A DNA stretch of 10,716 nt from an uncultured Blautia sp. (GTDB taxonomy: Bacteria > Bacillota > Clostridia > Lachnospirales > Lachnospiraceae): NCBI GenBank assembly GCA_934426285.1, contig CAKRYE010000061.1, positions 1-10,716 of the forward strand. The letters are read 5' to 3'. Made by a program: the position numbers and the translations under genes. Below the pieces are notes generated by a model. That model searched no databases. It saw only the letters and a program-made list of their open reading frames with translations, and was not told where the DNA came from. Shown here piece by piece: positions 291 to 10,527 of the stretch. The first letter of the stretch is position 1. Each line of letters starts with the position of its first letter.

Positions 291-1268
291 TTATCTGTTT
301 TGAAATTTAATTTGTTCTCCCTGAATCAATGGATAGCAGACCAATTTATCACTGTCCAGATTTTCCATGTGCATATCTACCCCACTGATCTGATGGTTTT
401 CATACGTATTATAATAATAAATCCCTTTTGTAGCATTACAGCAGGAAGTATATAAGGTAATCTCATACTTTCCGTCGGAAACCTCACAACAGCCACGCTG
501 CTGATCTACAGACCCGAGGATATGGAAAAACTGGCTGACGCTCTCCTCCTCTGATTCACCGGAAAAAGCATTTGCTTTTGTAAATGCCACACGTACAAAA
601 CGAGAAGCCGAAGAAAGATCTCCCGGAAGACCAAGGGCTCCCATTCCACGGCTGTATGCATTGAGGGGAAGATTGCTGCCAAATGTATTCACGGGCTGTT
701 TCGGTGAAAGGTGCATATAGTTATTCAATTGAAACATTTGCTGTGGAAAAGGCGGGTTGTTTGTGAGGACGCCAACCGGATTATCATAAACATGGAGACC
801 ATCAGACATAGATTCTACTGTAATAGCTTCCTTTTCATCAGCAATGATCCAATGCAGTTGGGCTAAAGGAAATTGTTCACTGAAAGGAGTATTCACTATA
901 TTAATATGAGCAAGTTTTTCCCGAACCTCTGTTACAGAAGAACACTGACTTAGAATCCAGGGAATAAATTCAAACTGTGCAACGTTATCCCCTTCCGTCT
1001 GAACTTCAGAATAAGAAGCATTCCCCACAAAATTAAGGCCTGCCATACCAAGCCCTTTTTCATTGACAGCATCATAATACAGGGGATAATTATCTGCTAC
1101 ATGAGCCATCCCAATAATCCCATAATGATTTTTCAATTCACCGGCATGCCGAAAATGAAACGGGTAATTGCGCGGTGTAACAGTAACCTGATCACCATAA
1201 GAGAATTCATAATCCAGCGTTCTTCCGAAATAAAAATCTTTTGTTTTATAAGTTGCTGCTGTACACAT
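291..1268 (-). CDS. bsh: Bile salt hydrolase (choloylglycine hydrolase)
   Basis: This enzyme cleaves the amide bond of glycine- or taurine-conjugated bile salts in the cytoplasm, releasing free bile acid and the amino acid. The 325-residue length matches the family (about 315-330). The N-terminal-nucleophile fold needs Cys as residue 1 after Met removal, so the second of two in-frame ATGs (1266-1268) is chosen. It gives MCTAATYKTK and stands 7 bases from AAGGAGG, whereas the ATG at 1272-1274 is only one base away. Expected active-site residues are present: Cys2, Arg16, Asp19, Asn79 (in GLNF; penicillin V acylases usually differ here), Asn170 and Arg223. An SRG motif lies in the substrate-loop region at 206-208. 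The gene appears monocistronic, with its own promoter (1295-1324) and terminator (231-275). There is no signal peptide, as in Gram-positive BSHs. The family call is firm; substrate preference is inferred. Confidence 0.95.
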   Translation of the reverse strand: MCTAATYKTKDFYFGRTLDYEFSYGDQVTVTPRNYPFHFRHAGELKNHYGIIGMAHVADNYPLYYDAVNEKGLGMAGLNFVGNASYSEVQTEGDNVAQFEFIPWILSQCSSVTEVREKLAHINIVNTPFSEQFPLAQLHWIIADEKEAITVESMSDGLHVYDNPVGVLTNNPPFPQQMFQLNNYMHLSPKQPVNTFGSNLPLNAYSRGMGALGLPGDLSSASRFVRVAFTKANAFSGESEEESVSQFFHILGSVDQQRGCCEVSDGKYEITLYTSCCNATKGIYYYNTYENHQISGVDMHMENLDSDKLVCYPLIQGEQIKFQNR

Positions 1269-1294
1269 GATCATTCCTCCTTAAATTCTTTTTT

Positions 1295-4043: not shown

Positions 4044-4120
4044 GTTTTTACTTAAATTTTTATGAAAAAAATCTAAAATTTTGCATGAACTATGCAGAGA
4101 AAGGACATCGTGTAATATAT

Positions 4121-4963
4121 ATGGATATTTTAGAGCATCTCCAGGAACTTTATCCTACCCTGACGAAAAAGCAGAAAACCATTGCAGATTATCTGATCGC
4201 CAATTTGGAGGAAATCAGTTACATTACACTGGCACAGCTAAGCCATCAGACCGGTACTTCAGAGCTGACTTTACTCCGTTTTTGTCAGAAACTGGGCTGC
4301 TCCAGCTTTCTGGACTTAAAGGAGCAGTTCCGGGAATATACTCAGAAAATGATTAAGCAGGCCTCCTCTTCTTCCTTTTTTCTGCCGGAACGCATCTCAG
4401 GCGAAGCCTCCGAGCGGGAACGGATCCTTCACGAAATCTGCAATACAGAGGCTACAGTTTTCTCTGATTTTATTGCTGGCATCAATCTGGAATCAGTGAT
4501 AAAGGCTTCTGATGAAATCCGGAAAAGCAGCCGTATCTACATCTTTGCCCATGATATTTCCCTGGTACCCGGTAAATTCCTGCAGGGTCGTCTGGAAATC
4601 CTGTACCTTAATGCTGTGTTGATTGATTTATCAGACCTGGAATTGACCCAGAAGACCATCCAACAGCTGACGGATGGTGATCTGGTAATCTTTTTCTCTT
4701 TCCCCCGCTATTATTTTCCTATTGGAAATATTGCTAAAAAAGCGGCAAAATCCGGTGTACCGATTCTGACCATCACCGACAGCGATGCTTCTCCGGCGGC
4801 AGCACACAGCACACTTTTGCTGCTTTGCCCCACCTCTACGAAGCTGTTTTACAACTCCATGACCGTGCCCATGGCCATGCTCAATATCCTGGCTTCCTGT
4901 CTTGTTATCGACAGTGTATCGCCAGCAGAACGTCAGATCTTTATTGATACCTTGCCATCCTGA
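4121..4963 (+). CDS. RpiR/MurR-family transcriptional regulator (HTH + SIS-like domain)
   Basis: A 280-residue DNA-binding regulator. The N-terminal HTH_6 domain (about 1-77) has the family pattern: LTKKQKTIADYLIANLEEISY, then a helix-turn-helix around TLAQLSHQTGTSELTLLRFCQKLG. The C-terminal part (about 120-265) has the alpha/beta pattern of an SIS domain, including KSGVPILTITDSDASPAA. The usual phosphosugar loop is replaced by FFSFPRYYF, so the ligand may not be a sugar phosphate. The start at 4121 fits the family's normal N-terminus (MDILEHLQELYP). Its only purine-rich site, AAGGA, is 15 bases away, and an in-frame ATG at 4085 has no site at all. It is divergent from the symporter operon, with overlapping promoters, and probably controls it. 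It shares a terminator with iadA. Confidence 0.88.
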   Translation: MDILEHLQELYPTLTKKQKTIADYLIANLEEISYITLAQLSHQTGTSELTLLRFCQKLGCSSFLDLKEQFREYTQKMIKQASSSSFFLPERISGEASERERILHEICNTEATVFSDFIAGINLESVIKASDEIRKSSRIYIFAHDISLVPGKFLQGRLEILYLNAVLIDLSDLELTQKTIQQLTDGDLVIFFSFPRYYFPIGNIAKKAAKSGVPILTITDSDASPAAAHSTLLLLCPTSTKLFYNSMTVPMAMLNILASCLVIDSVSPAERQIFIDTLPS

Positions 4964-4976
4964 TTTCCAGACAAAA

Positions 4977-5021
4977 AAACCGGATATACAAGTTTCCCAC
5001 AGGAAACCACATATCCGGTTT
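4977..5021. terminator. Bidirectional terminator between rpiR-type gene and iadA
   Basis: An 11-bp perfect stem (AAACCGGATAT 4977-4987 with ATATCCGGTTT 5011-5021) encloses a second hairpin (TTTCC 4993-4997 / GGAAA 5002-5006). T-rich runs follow on both strands: TTTCATTTTTATTC on the plus and TTTTTTTG on the minus. It lies between two convergent genes and would serve both. Confidence 0.9.
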
Positions 5022-6410: not shown

Positions 6411-6917
6411 CTATCGACTGAATAAGCTACCTTTCCTCTTCTTGATTTTTTGCCATCCAACAGTACCCATACACCCCAGAGCCAGCCCTGTCACCAGCGC
6501 AGTGACGGCAATTCCCACATCGCTATCGCCGTACATGCTCTGTCCTCTGGAAATATCTCTCGAATCCAGCTCTATATCGCAGACCTTGCAGTATGTAGTT
6601 TTACCGTAGGTATCCCAAGTATGGCCGTAATTCCCGTATTCGACACCGCATCTGATGCAAATCGCGCTCTTTGTACACATCGGTGTGCCATCGCTGATAT
6701 GAGGTGTCAGGACAGAGAGTACTACATTTCCGCAGTTGGTACATGTATAAGTAAAATGATGCTGGGTATTATCCTCATATTCATAGGAAAGGGTCACTGG
6801 CTTCCGGTCACCGCAATTACTGCAATAAGTTTCTTCCTCCGTCGCATATGCTGCCATCGGCAGGGCAGCCAGAAGTATACAGCACATGATCAGGGCGCTA
6901 AAGAATCTCTTTTTCAT
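6411..6917 (-). CDS. Cysteine-rich exported protein with C-terminal membrane anchor
   Basis: A 168-residue protein of no recognised family. It has a signal peptide (basic MKKRFF, hydrophobic core, probable cleavage after A-Y-A at about 25). The extracytoplasmic domain holds four CxxC pairs (32-35, 59-62, 87-90, 110-113) plus Cys81, arranged as two zinc-ribbon-like units or redox pairs. One membrane helix follows (about 134-154), then a basic tail (KIKKRK). It is thus predicted to be anchored with the Cys-rich part outside. Its ATG overlaps the stop of the membrane hydrolase gene (ATGA). Its ribosome binding site (AGGAGG) lies in the last codons of that gene, so the two are co-translated and probably work together at the cell surface. 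Zinc binding versus disulfide chemistry cannot be settled from sequence. Confidence 0.8.
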   Translation of the reverse strand: MKKRFFSALIMCCILLAALPMAAYATEEETYCSNCGDRKPVTLSYEYEDNTQHHFTYTCTNCGNVVLSVLTPHISDGTPMCTKSAICIRCGVEYGNYGHTWDTYGKTTYCKVCDIELDSRDISRGQSMYGDSDVGIAVTALVTGLALGCMGTVGWQKIKKRKGSLFSR

Positions 6918-8035
6918 TTTGCCTCCTCCTTTTTATTTGTTGTCAAGTCATAGTGATAAACATCATCCCAATTACGGCGAATTGCAATATCAGCGGTAAG
7001 GTCGGTATTATTGTAATTGATTGACCACTGCGTATTGCTAGTAATGCTTTCGGGATTCGGGTCCTGTGAAGAAGCCTGCAGTGCAGCCCACATAGTTTCA
7101 TCAGTGTAATTACCCTTTTGCTGTTCAAAAACATCCAACACAGCATCGTAACGCTCTCTGCCGTGACCATAGATTCCATTTTTCTGGTTCGGCTCCACCA
7201 TATCCTTATGCAGGATATAGAAATTGGTGACCGCCTCCGTTGGCGTTGCCACAAGCTCCCTCGTCTCGCTGTCACAGTCATATTCAACAACCCTGCCATC
7301 CCCGGACCCATCGGTTATGTAAAAATGGTAGTCACGGCCGCTGGTGGCAAACATGTCATAGCCTTTCAGCAATTCTATGGCTTCCTCAGTGGTCGAAGCA
7401 CGGTCAAGCACCAGACGAATAGCCAGAGTTGTCGCTATCGTCGGCTTTCCTGTGTCCTGATGAACCGGCTCACTGTCGAGTGTCAGCACCGCTATGGAAA
7501 CCCCTTTTTCATTCACCCCATCAAGGCAGATAAATGGAGCAGTCAGTGCCGTCATCTTCTTCTTGATGCTCTCATCGGCCTGATTTGCACCTACATTGTC
7601 AAGTGCTGTGAAAGCGACAGACTTGTATCCGTCTCTCGGCATACAGTAGACAAGCATTGCCGATGTATCATTCTTAAAATCATAATTTCGTCCCATATGG
7701 ATATCGCCGTCTGTGTCTTCCAAAGTGAAGGCTGTGCAGCCAAAATCTGGAACTTTGATGCTAACAGGCAGAAGGGGCAGTGCTTCCTTGAGAATGGCAT
7801 CCACCATGCTCTGATTATCCGTGATTCCATAGTTGATGATATCGTCCAGACTGTAATCGTATTTGATGTCCATGCTGTAGAGGTTATACCCATCTGAATA
7901 ATCGGTAATTCTTTCTATACTGTTCATTGATTGAATGCGGGTAAAGTAGATGCCGACAAATGCAATTACAAGAACCAACGCCAAAGCAATGATTCCGCCC
8001 AAAACACGCAGTGTAATTTTTAATGGCTTTTTCAT
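6914..8035 (-). CDS. Membrane-anchored Ntn hydrolase, choloylglycine hydrolase/acyl-transferase superfamily
   Basis: A 373-residue protein with an N-terminal membrane helix (about 10-31), a linker of about 68 residues, then an N-terminal-nucleophile domain. The nucleophile is predicted at Cys100 (DFGCTAFT), followed by the family's Arg116 and Asp119 (GRNYDF), NEKGVS at about 175-180 and a C-terminal TQWSINYN...RNWDDVYHYDL block. Relatives hydrolyse linear amides: bile salts, penicillin V, N-acyl ethanolamines, acyl-homoserine lactones. In the bsh product of this window Cys is residue 2. Here it is deep inside, so activation probably needs cleavage before Cys100, as in acid ceramidase-type relatives. 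The start at 8035 has GAAGGAGGAG just upstream; a longer reading frame to 8173 lacks a convincing site and is not used. The active domain most likely faces outside. The substrate is unknown. Confidence 0.85.
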   Translation of the reverse strand: MKKPLKITLRVLGGIIALALVLVIAFVGIYFTRIQSMNSIERITDYSDGYNLYSMDIKYDYSLDDIINYGITDNQSMVDAILKEALPLLPVSIKVPDFGCTAFTLEDTDGDIHMGRNYDFKNDTSAMLVYCMPRDGYKSVAFTALDNVGANQADESIKKKMTALTAPFICLDGVNEKGVSIAVLTLDSEPVHQDTGKPTIATTLAIRLVLDRASTTEEAIELLKGYDMFATSGRDYHFYITDGSGDGRVVEYDCDSETRELVATPTEAVTNFYILHKDMVEPNQKNGIYGHGRERYDAVLDVFEQQKGNYTDETMWAALQASSQDPNPESITSNTQWSINYNNTDLTADIAIRRNWDDVYHYDLTTNKKEEAK

Positions 8036-8173
8036 TTTATCTCCTCCTTCTCTTGTTCCTGAGCTTTGATTTTCTTCTGTCTCCACCGTATGCAGAAAAC
8101 CGTCAATGCTACTCCTGCAGCAAAGGCAATGTCTTTCCAGCCATAACTCCCCCCGGAAATTTTCGCACTTCAT
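8032..8173 (-). pseudogene. Frameshifted small membrane-protein ORF
   Basis: One minus-strand frame, open from 8169 to the TGA at 8032-8034, encodes a good membrane helix (DIAFAAGVALTVFCI) with a basic-acidic tail (RWRQKKIKAQEQEKEEIK). That TGA overlaps the next gene's ATG by four bases, as is typical of coupled genes. The frame itself has no ATG. The ATG at 8171-8173 lies in another frame, and the two join if the run of six Gs (plus-strand C8149-8154) had five. The product would then be a 46-residue protein. Possible explanations are a decayed gene, phase variation at the G-run, ribosomal slippage or a sequencing error. The site before the ATG (AAAGGG) is weak. Confidence 0.4.
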
Positions 8174-8227
8174 ATCCCTTTACTATATAAAAGACATAAA
8201 ATCCCAAATCCTTTCACCCAAAATCAA

Positions 8228-8270
8228 AAAAAATTCAAAAAAAATCAGCCGCTCCAAGAAATGGAACGGC
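8228..8270 (-). terminator. Terminator of the sigma factor-PrsW operon
   Basis: In minus-strand RNA GCCGUUCC (8263-8270) pairs with GGAGCGGC (8248-8255) over 8 bp with one G-U pair, around a 7-base loop. UGAUUUUUUUU and a second U-run follow. It lies about 25 bases after the prsW stop and cuts the operon off from the downstream membrane hydrolase cluster. Confidence 0.88.
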
Positions 8271-8295
8271 CACACAGTATACTTGCAGAGATATT

Positions 8296-8940
8296 CTATA
8301 GTTTAAATCCTATTTTCATTTTGGAAAGAATCAGTTTTACAGCAAAGAGGAAGACAATCATCAGTGAAGGGAACAGGTATCCTATCATCTGCCATGATCC
8401 GTCTGCTGTGATAAGCAGATTATAAATTCCATGGAATCCGGTACTGGCACCAAGTATTCCGACTGTTCCTGTGACTGCCAGCCAATGGCGGCGAAATACA
8501 AAGGAAATCCCAAAGCCGGTCAATATACCGCAAAGAATATGAAGTGCCCCTGCAGAAATACCCCGAATCAGCAGAAATGTAAAATTTGCCGCCCCGTTTT
8601 CAGTCAGATAGCAGACATTTTCAAAGGTGGTAAATCCCACTGCAAGTGCAATGGCGGCTATCGGCAATTCCTCTGGCTTCGGCTCAAAGATCAGAAAGAA
8701 GAACAGCAACGGTATCAGCTTCATCACTTCCTCACAGACTGGAGTGATCTCTATAGCAGTCACAGTCATATCTGTTCCATAATATCCCATGAAGAAACTG
8801 CTGACATAAGCCGAGAGCAGGCAGGTGCCCATGCCAAGGATTACGAACAGCATAAAACGACGAGCTGAGCCTTTGGTGAAAAACAATGCCAGAATCAATG
8901 GAATGGCAAGGCAGATAAATATATTTTCAATATAAGTCAA
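8296..8940 (-). CDS. prsW: PrsW-family intramembrane metalloprotease
   Basis: A 214-residue polytopic membrane protein with the PrsW motif set: EEVMK (Glu70, Glu71, Lys74), GFTTFENVCYL (Phe106, Glu107, Asn108), His134 in GALHILCGILTGFG and FHGIYN (His170, Asn174). In Bacillus subtilis PrsW makes the first cut in the anti-sigma factor RsiW to free SigW. In Clostridioides difficile PrsW acts on the partner of an ECF sigma factor. This gene is last in an operon with an ECF sigma gene and a candidate anti-sigma gene, which fits that role. The start is TTG (8938-8940), overlapping the upstream TGA, with GGGAGGTG 8 bases before it; no good ATG exists nearby. The length is similar to B. subtilis PrsW. 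Family call firm, target inferred. Confidence 0.85.
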   Translation of the reverse strand: MTYIENIFICLAIPLILALFFTKGSARRFMLFVILGMGTCLLSAYVSSFFMGYYGTDMTVTAIEITPVCEEVMKLIPLLFFFLIFEPKPEELPIAAIALAVGFTTFENVCYLTENGAANFTFLLIRGISAGALHILCGILTGFGISFVFRRHWLAVTGTVGILGASTGFHGIYNLLITADGSWQMIGYLFPSLMIVFLFAVKLILSKMKIGFKL

Positions 8941-9554
8941 TTTCGCTTCACCTCCCGCAAAGTCAGAGGCAGCAGTGCCGCCATAGATAGATTAAATGTA
9001 ATGTCCACAGCGAAATAGAGATTAAAGTGAGTATAATCTTGCGTGAAATCAGAAACCAGATACACAAGCAGCTGTAATACCACACAGCATATCATTAAAA
9101 TGTCCATTCCTTTATGAACAGTGCTGTACTTCATATTCGATATGGAGAAGTACACGGTTGCCCCCGCTGTGAGCGAAAAAAGCGCAGAGATGAAATAAGA
9201 GGGTCCGAAAACCTGATCCGCAAAGGCTACCACCGCAATGATTGCTGCCACGGCTACGGCTGGAATGTAGAAGCGATGTTTTACTCCCTCCGTTCGCAAG
9301 ATTTGTGCCGACAGGTAGAAAAGCCAGGCGGAAAGCCAGGAGATTTCCGCCACATAAAAAACCTGCGGCCAAATGCCGATGATAACCAGATACAGCACGT
9401 AATATGTAGTTCCCATAGCAAAACAGGCATACGCGAGAGAGAGTACCATAAGACTGCGGCTTTTATGGTGCAAGGCAAAAATGCCGGAGGAAAGAGCAAG
9501 GCAAAACAACAGTAACACTTGAAAAAGATTGTCAATCAGTTCAAAGTTTTTCAT
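8937..9554 (-). CDS. Seven-helix integral membrane protein, candidate sensor
   Basis: A 205-residue protein, almost entirely hydrophobic. About seven membrane segments are visible (roughly 9-28, 35-57, 64-86, 94-112, 116-137, 149-167, 177-198), with short loops and a basic end (REVKRN). No catalytic motif or known family is recognised. The layout resembles the 7TM sensory halves of some membrane kinases, but no kinase domain follows. Its start overlaps the preceding gene by 14 bases, with AGGAGG 9 bases before the ATG, and its stop overlaps the TTG of prsW. Gene order suggests that it senses a membrane signal or scaffolds the sigma/anti-sigma/protease complex; this is inference. Confidence 0.75.
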   Translation of the reverse strand: MKNFELIDNLFQVLLLFCLALSSGIFALHHKSRSLMVLSLAYACFAMGTTYYVLYLVIIGIWPQVFYVAEISWLSAWLFYLSAQILRTEGVKHRFYIPAVAVAAIIAVVAFADQVFGPSYFISALFSLTAGATVYFSISNMKYSTVHKGMDILMICCVVLQLLVYLVSDFTQDYTHFNLYFAVDITFNLSMAALLPLTLREVKRN

Positions 9555-9891
9555 CCCTGTCGCCCTCCTGCCTCTTACATTTCTCTCTACGATGCAGACG
9601 ATACAGAAGCACAGTAACGCTCACCCCCAGAAGAAAGCACAATAAACCCATCAGAATATAAGTGAGTGCTGCATGATTTCCAATCAGGCTTGCTGCACCT
9701 GACGTGTGACTGACTCCGCCCAATGCACTCATTACCAATCCCGGCATGAAAGCTCCAATACCAACCACCAGCACAAGGCAGGCTACGATACAGCAGCTAT
9801 CCAGTATACGTTGTTTCTTTTTTCGATTTTCTTCCTTTATTTCTTCTGTCCGCTTATGAATCAGACGGACACGCTCTTCATTCGTCCGCAT
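9541..9891 (-). CDS. Two-helix basic membrane protein, candidate anti-sigma factor
   Basis: A 116-residue protein. It has a strongly charged N-terminal region (1-30, RTNEERVRLIHKRTEEIKEE then KKK), a membrane helix (about 32-56), a short outside loop (57-73), a second helix (74-97) and a basic tail. Both ends are predicted cytoplasmic. It lacks the HxxxCxxC zinc anti-sigma motif, so it is not a classical ZAS-domain protein. It directly follows the sigma gene (14-base overlap; AGGAGG within the sigma 3' end) and shares an operon with a PrsW protease. That position and topology suggest a short membrane anti-sigma factor whose N-terminal helix binds the sigma factor and which the protease cuts. 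No homologous family is recognised with certainty. Confidence 0.7.
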   Translation of the reverse strand: MRTNEERVRLIHKRTEEIKEENRKKKQRILDSCCIVACLVLVVGIGAFMPGLVMSALGGVSHTSGAASLIGNHAALTYILMGLLCFLLGVSVTVLLYRLHRREKCKRQEGDRDEKL

Positions 9892-10429
9892 AAGTAAATC
9901 CCTCCTGTTCCAGTATCGTTTTCAGGCGCTGCTTTCCCCGGTGAACAAGATTTGTGATTGCATATTCGCTTTTACCCATGACCGCAGCTGCACTTTGGTA
10001 ACTCATATCCTCAAAGTAAACCAGATACAGAGCCTCTCTGTACTCAGTCTTCAGTTTTTCCAAAGCAGCATAAAGCTGTCGTCTCTTCTCATCCTGCAAC
10101 AACTGTGTATCGACAAAACTGTCGCTTTGTAACTCAAATTCTAGTTTCTCCAGTTGGACAAACAAAAACCGATGCTTGTGCCTGTGGCGAAAAGCCAGAT
10201 GACGTGCCGTTTTATAAAGGTAAGCTTTGAAGCTACCTTTATCATCAATAGGGCGTTCCTTAGCAAAAACCAGTGAGAAGGCTTCTATCATCAGGTCTTC
10301 AGCATTGTGGAAGTCCTGCAAATATCCATTTATATATAAGATCAGCGCATCGCCGTATCGTTCCACCAGTATATTGGCGGCCTGCTCTTCGCCAGTAAGA
10401 TACCGCCTGTATAATGTTTCATCTGTCAT
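9878..10429 (-). CDS. ECF-type RNA polymerase sigma factor
   Basis: A 183-residue sigma-70 family protein of ECF size. Region 2 spans about 8-85 (core contact NAEDLMIEAFSLVF at 42-55; -10 recognition helix around FKAYLYKTARHLAFRHRHK at 67-85). After a linker, region 4 spans about 117-175: LEKLKTEYREALYLVYFEDM, then a helix-turn-helix SYQSAAAVMGKSEYAITNLVHRGKQRLK. The start ATG at 10427-10429 is chosen for fit to the family and an upstream AGAAGGGG; the open frame extends to a TTG at 10513, which would add 28 unlikely residues and overlap the promoter. It is first in an operon with a candidate anti-sigma factor, a 7TM protein and PrsW, so release by proteolysis is the likely activation route. 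Confidence 0.88.
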   Translation of the reverse strand: MTDETLYRRYLTGEEQAANILVERYGDALILYINGYLQDFHNAEDLMIEAFSLVFAKERPIDDKGSFKAYLYKTARHLAFRHRHKHRFLFVQLEKLEFELQSDSFVDTQLLQDEKRRQLYAALEKLKTEYREALYLVYFEDMSYQSAAAVMGKSEYAITNLVHRGKQRLKTILEQEGFTYADE

Positions 10430-10498
10430 TACATATGCCGCCCCTTCTATGTTTGCATTATGATCATGAAAAGCTCCTTCTTCATTTTTGATACTTTC

Positions 10499-10527
10499 AG
10501 TATAGTACCACAAATCTTAACATACAA
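10499..10527 (-). promoter_or_regulatory. Candidate promoter of the sigma factor operon
   Basis: On the minus strand a -10 TATACT (10499-10504) lies 17 bp from a partial -35 (TTGTAT, 10522-10527), about 70 bases before the sigma start. A short dyad AGGAA-CA-TTCCT (10529-10540) lies immediately upstream. No GGAAC/CGTC pair typical of many ECF-dependent promoters is seen, so autoregulation is not evident. Confidence 0.4.

Follow-up and report, generated by a model that had tools for sequence, protein, structure and literature searches.

A sigma factor, 2TM, 7TM and PrsW module in an uncultured Blautia: a putative signalling cassette with a single target promoter

The 10,716-nt contig CAKRYE010000061.1 from an uncultured Blautia sp. 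(hereafter the window, meaning the whole stretch analysed) carries on its minus strand a four-gene operon that encodes an extracytoplasmic function (ECF) sigma factor, a small protein with two transmembrane (TM) helices (2TM-A), a seven-helix membrane protein (7TM) and a PrsW-family intramembrane protease. The operon is genuine and conserved, and its arrangement is not a product of chance: 351 proteins homologous to 7TM and 335 homologous to 2TM were found at E <= 0.001, and the gene order recurs. An ECF-like promoter motif follows PrsW in most relatives, ahead of a second 2TM gene (2TM-B, a paralogue of 2TM-A) and, usually, a gene for a large secreted protein, here called the payload. We propose that the module is a self-contained signalling cassette with one target, in which the 7TM protein would sense, PrsW would cut, 2TM-A would free the sigma factor, one promoter would respond and 2TM-B would reset the circuit. 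We give this reading a probability of a little below 0.6.

Composition and conservation of the module

An earlier reading, made from the sequence alone, had described four genes overlapping by 14, 14 and 4 bases and ending at a terminator. The overlaps computed from the gene ends have these values, and the coordinates and the hairpin agree (Table 1). The terminator is present, but it is not the end of the unit, which continues with a predicted promoter, a decayed 2TM-B and a payload operon. The sequence-only reading had also made its case depend on conservation of the gene order in relatives, and the order sigma-2TM-7TM-PrsW does recur in 44 of 51 PrsW-bearing loci, with Lachnospiraceae, Oscillospiraceae and Holdemania represented. 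A locus entered this set when a PrsW match lay near a 7TM match; the near-identical copies L085-L087 are included, while L018 and L024 (copies of L092 and L100), L110 (a kinase-type 7TM on a cut contig) and the weak 7TM matches in G919, G957 and G1004 were dropped. Within the 44, the sigma frame is broken in L088 and L121, and 2TM-A is partial in L092 and L121. The sigma gene is present in 48 of the 51 loci and missing from three (L129, L130 and L106, the last a 7TM-PrsW pair between transporter-like genes, with no sigma or 2TM genes nearby); 2TM-A alone is missing from four.

When the genome collection was scanned with the 7TM alignment, 10 loci came up, all of which have sigma, 2TM, 7TM and PrsW in order (one, L004, has a frame break in sigma). 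The whole-genome tallies are minimum values, since each genome contributed only its few best candidates to the scoring. Matches occur in at least 13 of 250 genomes in the family of the Oscillibacter genome and at least six of 295 in its order, in at least 29 of 397 Lachnospiraceae genomes (the family of the Oliverpabstia genome) and in at least nine of 291 genomes in the class of Oliverpabstia, two of these nine only at E above 5e-4. We read the 29 Lachnospiraceae matches as 16 standalone modules, 12 kinase-type proteins only and one unclear case (G919); by this reading the module is uncommon in the family (at least 16 of 397 genomes). PrsW is the most conserved of the four proteins and 7TM the least (e.g., 78-79% and 48% in L001-L003), a pattern that adaptation of the 7TM part to different signals would explain.

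The first gene product matches Pfam Sigma70_r4_2 (52.5 bits; cut-off 25.7), Sigma70_r2 (35.8; 24) and NCBIfam TIGR02937 (76.5; 42.9), which identifies it as an ECF sigma factor. The protease belongs to the PrsW family (PF13367, 63.2 bits; cut-off 23.5). Its residues E70, E107, H134 and H170 are found in all 51 copies and E71 in 50 of them; we take these five to be the active-site residues, and the catalytic residues are thus presumably intact in nearly every copy.

The 7TM protein had been suggested to be the sensor, and this now appears very likely, since hybrid histidine kinases begin with the same domain. The 7TM profile matches the N-termini of such kinases and one HD-GYP-like protein. The kinase matches comprise 12 open reading frames (736-1253 aa, E 9.0e-16 to 5.6e-29) and cover nearly the whole profile in 11 of the 12; one is on a cut contig. 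By eye, the kinase N-termini and the 7TM proteins have the motifs EN..Q, GW and EY..WTSS in common, and residues E5, N9, Q12, W73 and D184 are invariant among the 44 rows of the 7TM alignment. The AlphaFold 2 (AF2) model (pLDDT 91.4) appears to resemble the seven-helix bundle of rhodopsins and G-protein-coupled receptors (GPCRs), a modelled likeness of fold only, and a search of the profile against PDB by sequence gave no meaningful match. Microbial rhodopsins bind retinal through a lysine in helix 7. We rejected a microbial rhodopsin as a candidate, as the rows read of the 44-row alignment (every second one, plus further rows) have no conserved helix-7 lysine and Pfam gives no rhodopsin family match.

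By genomic linkage, 2TM-A is a candidate anti-sigma factor. The profile searches proposed for the 2TM and 7TM proteins place neither in a Pfam or NCBIfam family above the curated cut-offs, and 2TM-A has no zinc-anti-sigma match there, in agreement with the earlier remark that the putative anti-sigma factor lacks the zinc motif. It is thus not of the ZAS type (RsiW): a zinc domain match is absent, and there are two hydrophobic helices, seen in the sequence and in a weak AF2 model, rather than a single TM segment. Conservation in 2TM-A is seen at its N-terminus (MRt.eER), with M1, R2, E6, R7 and R14 ranking near the top, and in the loop pair A67-S68, a pair that 2TM-B does not keep. L092 and L089 were excluded from the 2TM alignments. 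Three 2TM homologues (P0175, P0186 and P0207) have source names of the MgtC/SapB family (two) or DUF4179 (one), which are probably carried over from other annotations. In L006, sigma and 2TM-A lie in a single 304-aa frame (4094-5008, plus strand), which may be a true gene fusion or result from an indel in the assembly.

The promoter behind PrsW and the genes it precedes

A motif derived by expectation maximization from 31 nonredundant regions upstream of 2TM-B, with the window left out of training, has the consensus gGGTGGGAGTTTTTTtgaTTTTaTGTATCTATAT (25.6 bits). Its two blocks are mostly GGTG[AG][AG]AG and then TGTAC or TGTCT, 14 bases apart by eye. The window site scores 25.2 bits, compared with 5.6 for the next best position in the window and a maximum of 12.8 in 200 shuffles. 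In 36 of the 49 loci that offer sufficient sequence, most of them training loci, 12.9 bits is reached within 420 bases of the PrsW stop, and in almost all scoring loci the motif precedes the start of 2TM-B by 32-60 bases. Among 2,026 random pieces of 440 bases drawn from these loci, eight attain 12.9 bits, a control not fully cleared of known sites.

Genome-wide, a first pattern found 10 sites in nine of nine genomes, behind 10 of the 11 known module copies. The eleventh copy (G001:C51) has another promoter type, matched by a second pattern that found seven sites in six of six genomes; these belong to six modules, an Oscillibacter module with two payload genes having two. The reversed patterns found no sites in either genome-wide search. 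By coordinates, the pattern sites (14 different genomes in all) lie just downstream of PrsW, except for the second site of L001, which is 1.4 kb further on, behind the first L001 payload gene. Two of the 13 regions under the threshold, those of L099 and the first module of L109, have a different pair of elements, TTAGGAAT / GGACTC, 13 bases apart by eye. L109 has two tandem sigma-7TM-PrsW modules in one genome, the first without 2TM-A, and the common promoter motif follows neither.

Upstream of the sigma gene we found no ECF-like site within 150 bases (best 0.7 bits, n = 48), and autoregulation from an ECF-like promoter is rejected for the interval scanned. Since, in the genomes searched, sites lie only behind PrsW and none upstream of sigma, the sigma factor probably serves a single neighbouring promoter and does not drive its own operon. 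In 17 of 39 nonredundant loci a TATAAT box precedes sigma by no more than 150 bases (mean of 2.9 and maximum of 8 in shuffles).

2TM-B follows PrsW on the same strand in 41 of the 51 loci, at a distance of 50-304 bases in 39 of them and of 1,552 and 1,909 bases in L085 and L108. Among the ten remaining loci, four (L005, L092, L097 and L116) have less than 400 bases left, L116 and L122 have a 2TM gene on the opposite strand, no 2TM-B was seen downstream in L106, L118, L121 and L130, and the window retains a remnant. The payload gene overlaps 2TM-B by 4 bases in 19 of the 41 loci. The payloads are usually large secreted proteins, many of which begin with a very similar signal peptide (MKKRILSILL...) and differ in their mature parts; six of them were scanned for domains, and SLH, Flg_new, Big_2, MBG or dockerin were among those found. 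Overall, the kinds seen are surface proteins with SLH, immunoglobulin-like or Listeria-Bacteroides repeats, LD-carboxypeptidase-like proteins and a CBAH-like hydrolase. L006, L007, L009 and L090 have an S66 LD-carboxypeptidase-like gene followed by peptide-transporter-like genes (by eye). Neither a secreted-protein nor an LD-carboxypeptidase-like payload was seen in L089, L108, L126 and L129. The module of Oliverpabstia intestinalis is complete, from sigma, 7TM and PrsW to the two 2TM genes and a payload.

Near-identical modules can carry unrelated payloads. L001 (Oscillibacter), L002 (Holdemania) and L003 (Oliverpabstia) represent two classes and three families, and their DNA from sigma to PrsW is 99% identical (compared via the copies L085-L087); residues 36-700 of their payloads have no significant mutual similarity, and the identity between L002 and L003 stops about 16 codons into the payload gene. 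Of the 45 closest pairs listed, several with 84-90% module identity have unrelated payloads, and others have common ones. We see about an even chance that the module is a horizontally mobile sense-and-display cassette, in which a seven-helix receptor domain, found also on histidine kinases, would act by way of a dedicated PrsW on a private one-promoter sigma factor, payloads would be exchanged at a docking site made of the promoter and the beginning of a signal peptide sequence, and the circuit would move between bacterial classes. No encoded relative was found in viral contigs and no PrsW relative on plasmids at 1e-15. Two phage records have relatives. The larger, MT835688.1 (L141; GenBank "Bacteriophage sp."), appears to be bacterial chromosome; it carries the module, a promoter scoring 40.9 bits and a gene for a large secreted protein. 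The surrounding genes look like housekeeping genes (by eye, those for pyrimidine synthesis among them), so the record does not support a module carried by phages. A small HTH, excisionase-like gene (RFGRSWAIP; named by eye) lies directly 5' of sigma in at least nine of 48 loci (L085-L087, L091, L093, L095, L103, L119 and L120) and may mark the left end of a mobile unit. It was not confirmed as a general part of the module at this frequency, which is a lower bound because the strict text pattern missed loci with similar peptides.

The window's own target genes (Table 1) depart from the usual arrangement. The start of the decayed 2TM-B, MAGKT, resembles the MTGKT of relatives, and its stop overlaps the next ATG. 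The payload that follows matches PF02275 (55.7 bits; cut-off 20.4) and lies below the cut-off of NCBIfam C45_proenzyme (70.7; 85); among proteins of solved structure, its sequence matches choloylglycine and bile salt hydrolases, all weakly (best E 1.5e-4). The second payload gene overlaps the first by 4 bases and has no family above cut-off in the Pfam scan. In L001, a hydrolase 73% identical to that of the window stands behind the first copy of the same promoter, and a second promoter copy, 2TM-B and an SLH payload follow. Both loci have the hydrolase behind the promoter, so two separate loci pair the enzyme with it; the CBAH-like payload was found in no other locus collected by then, except for further copies of the L001 place. 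As the window keeps 2TM-A alone, the feedback arm may be lost and the response may be longer-lived. A separate gene cluster of the window contains another choloylglycine-hydrolase gene, this one full-length (291-1274, minus strand; 347 bits for PF02275).

Table 1. Positions of the module, its predicted signals and the genes downstream of it in the window
Feature	Coordinates	Strand	Remarks
ECF-type sigma factor	9878..10429	minus	183 aa; ATG 10429-10427
2TM-A	9541..9891	minus	116 aa; basic conserved N-terminal helix and two TM helices; proposed anti-sigma factor
7TM protein, very likely sensor	8937..9554	minus	205 aa
PrsW-family intramembrane protease	8296..8940	minus	214 aa; TTG start
Intrinsic terminator 3' of PrsW	8246..8272	minus	hairpin of 11 pairs, 6 G-C, then T-run
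Housekeeping-type promoter 5' of the sigma operon, weak candidate	10499..10527	minus	TTGTAT - 17 - TATACT; not listed by the scan
Predicted ECF-like promoter of the downstream operon	8186..8219	minus	GGGTGAAAGGATTTGGGATTTTATGTCTTTTATA
Elements of this promoter	within 8186-8219	minus	GGTGAAAG and TGTC; predicted to be needed for activity
Decayed 2TM-B	8032..8148	minus	MAGKT-like start at 8144; TM2 and charged tail in another frame
Payload gene	6914..8035	minus	membrane-anchored CBAH/C45-type Ntn hydrolase, 373 aa; N-terminal anchor (by eye)
Payload gene 2	6411..6917	minus	168 aa; by eye, N-terminus like a signal peptide, CxxC pairs and a hydrophobic helix at the C-terminus

Proposed mechanism and competing explanations

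In the mechanism we favour, a housekeeping promoter would transcribe the sigma operon, as the TATAAT boxes of relatives suggest, so that the parts stand ready. At rest, the short basic N-terminal helix of 2TM-A would tether the sigma factor at the membrane. The 7TM protein would sense an extracytoplasmic or membrane signal, in line with its homology to kinase sensors, and would license cleavage of 2TM-A by the co-encoded PrsW, with A67-S68 in the outer loop as the probable site. The idea for this site comes from RsiW of B. subtilis, which is reportedly cleaved between Ala168 and Ser169, a detail that the literature passages did not confirm. The freed sigma factor would fire the one promoter behind the PrsW terminator, to which the motif, its position and its uniqueness point. 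2TM-B, the first target gene in most relatives and one that would often be translationally coupled to the secreted payload, may then re-capture the sigma factor and end the response.

Several observations weigh against this mechanism. Thirteen of the 49 downstream regions, mainly of divergent or decayed modules, fall under the motif threshold, and the argument that this sigma factor probably recognises the motif is drawn solely from proximity and uniqueness. The pair in L106 indicates that 7TM and PrsW can exist apart from sigma and 2TM genes. AF2 models 2TM-A poorly (pLDDT 69), and two of 120 listed 2TM homologues have a precomputed PF07332 (holin-type) label, a family for which the window 2TM-A itself scores 20.6 bits, below the cut-off of 28.4.

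The 2TM proteins might instead be adaptors of 7TM-PrsW, with the sigma factor held in some other way (e.g., by the cytoplasmic side of 7TM) or controlled by its abundance. Their cytoplasmic N-terminus has only about 30 residues, they have no above-cut-off similarity to a known anti-sigma family, and four of the 48 sigma-bearing modules do without 2TM-A. Those four nevertheless carry 2TM-B, and every sigma-bearing module has at least one 2TM gene (48/48); moreover, conservation of 2TM-A is concentrated in part at the N-terminus, where the tether would lie, and the single frame of sigma and 2TM-A in L006, even if it may be an assembly indel, also weighs against this reading. We hold the adaptor explanation to be unlikely.

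Still less probable, in our view, is that PrsW and 7TM act mainly on the payload or on 2TM-B, in processing or export, and that the sigma factor only sets expression. PrsW domains have been proposed to process polymorphic toxins (in the passages available from PMC3482391), the payloads are exported, and many of their genes overlap 2TM-B by 4 bases; yet PrsW lies with sigma and 2TM-A before the terminator, apart from the payload, and the unrelated payloads beside 99% identical sigma-to-PrsW DNA argue against payload-specific cutting. An equally improbable explanation concerns the motif, which could merely accompany the terminator, or be some other cis element (an operator or a leader-RNA element), rather than the promoter of this sigma factor. 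It does lie close behind the T-run, and the regions without it, counted above, fit such an origin. The two-block form, the position 32-60 bases before 2TM-B in nearly all scoring loci, the confinement of matches to sites behind PrsW in the genomes searched and the retention of the motif in the window despite the decay of 2TM-B all favour a promoter.

Relation to known systems

The closest known counterpart is sigmaW-RsiW-PrsW of Bacillus subtilis, which, in passages of the cited papers, consists of an ECF sigma factor, a membrane-bound inhibitor and PrsW as the protease of the first cut (PMC5358783, PMC10202637, PMC3498285); RsiW is described there as crossing the membrane once and carrying a CHCC zinc domain (PMC5358783). 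As far as these passages go, the two systems are alike in having an ECF sigma factor, a membrane-bound inhibitor (here a candidate) and PrsW. They differ in that the candidate inhibitor here has two TM helices and no zinc-family match, a likely sensor, 7TM, belongs to the same operon, a single neighbouring promoter probably takes the place of a regulon, and PrsW is not of the B. subtilis equivalog type (NF033739; 32.8 bits, cut-off 225). We rate the module as working like sigmaW-RsiW-PrsW, with the 2TM candidate inhibitor, the co-encoded 7TM protein and the probably single promoter as its new elements.

In SigI-RsgI, the sensing part lies within the anti-sigma factor itself, whereas the module encodes 7TM as a protein in its own right and brings its own PrsW. 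Clostridium thermocellum has several alternative SigI-RsgI sigma factors per genome that link an outside signal to secreted proteins (abstract of PMC4711584), and the tie between outside signal and secreted proteins is the likeness to our case. The hybrid kinases L063-L069 and L071-L074 have a homologous N-terminal 7TM domain. 7TM histidine-kinase receptors, among which BtsS is another example, differ in having a kinase output where the module has a sigma factor. No description of a sigma-2TM-7TM-PrsW module was found in the literature titles and abstract beginnings searched, and an ECF group number for it may exist.

To our knowledge, the signals that trigger PrsW are largely unknown. Here a likely sensor, the protease, its likely substrate, the sigma factor and probably its only promoter lie within about 2.3 kb, which makes the question directly testable. 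The module also brings to light a sensor domain common to kinases and sigma modules that has no Pfam family in the proteins scanned, and it would represent an unusual case of gut bacteria exchanging the output protein of a regulatory cassette.

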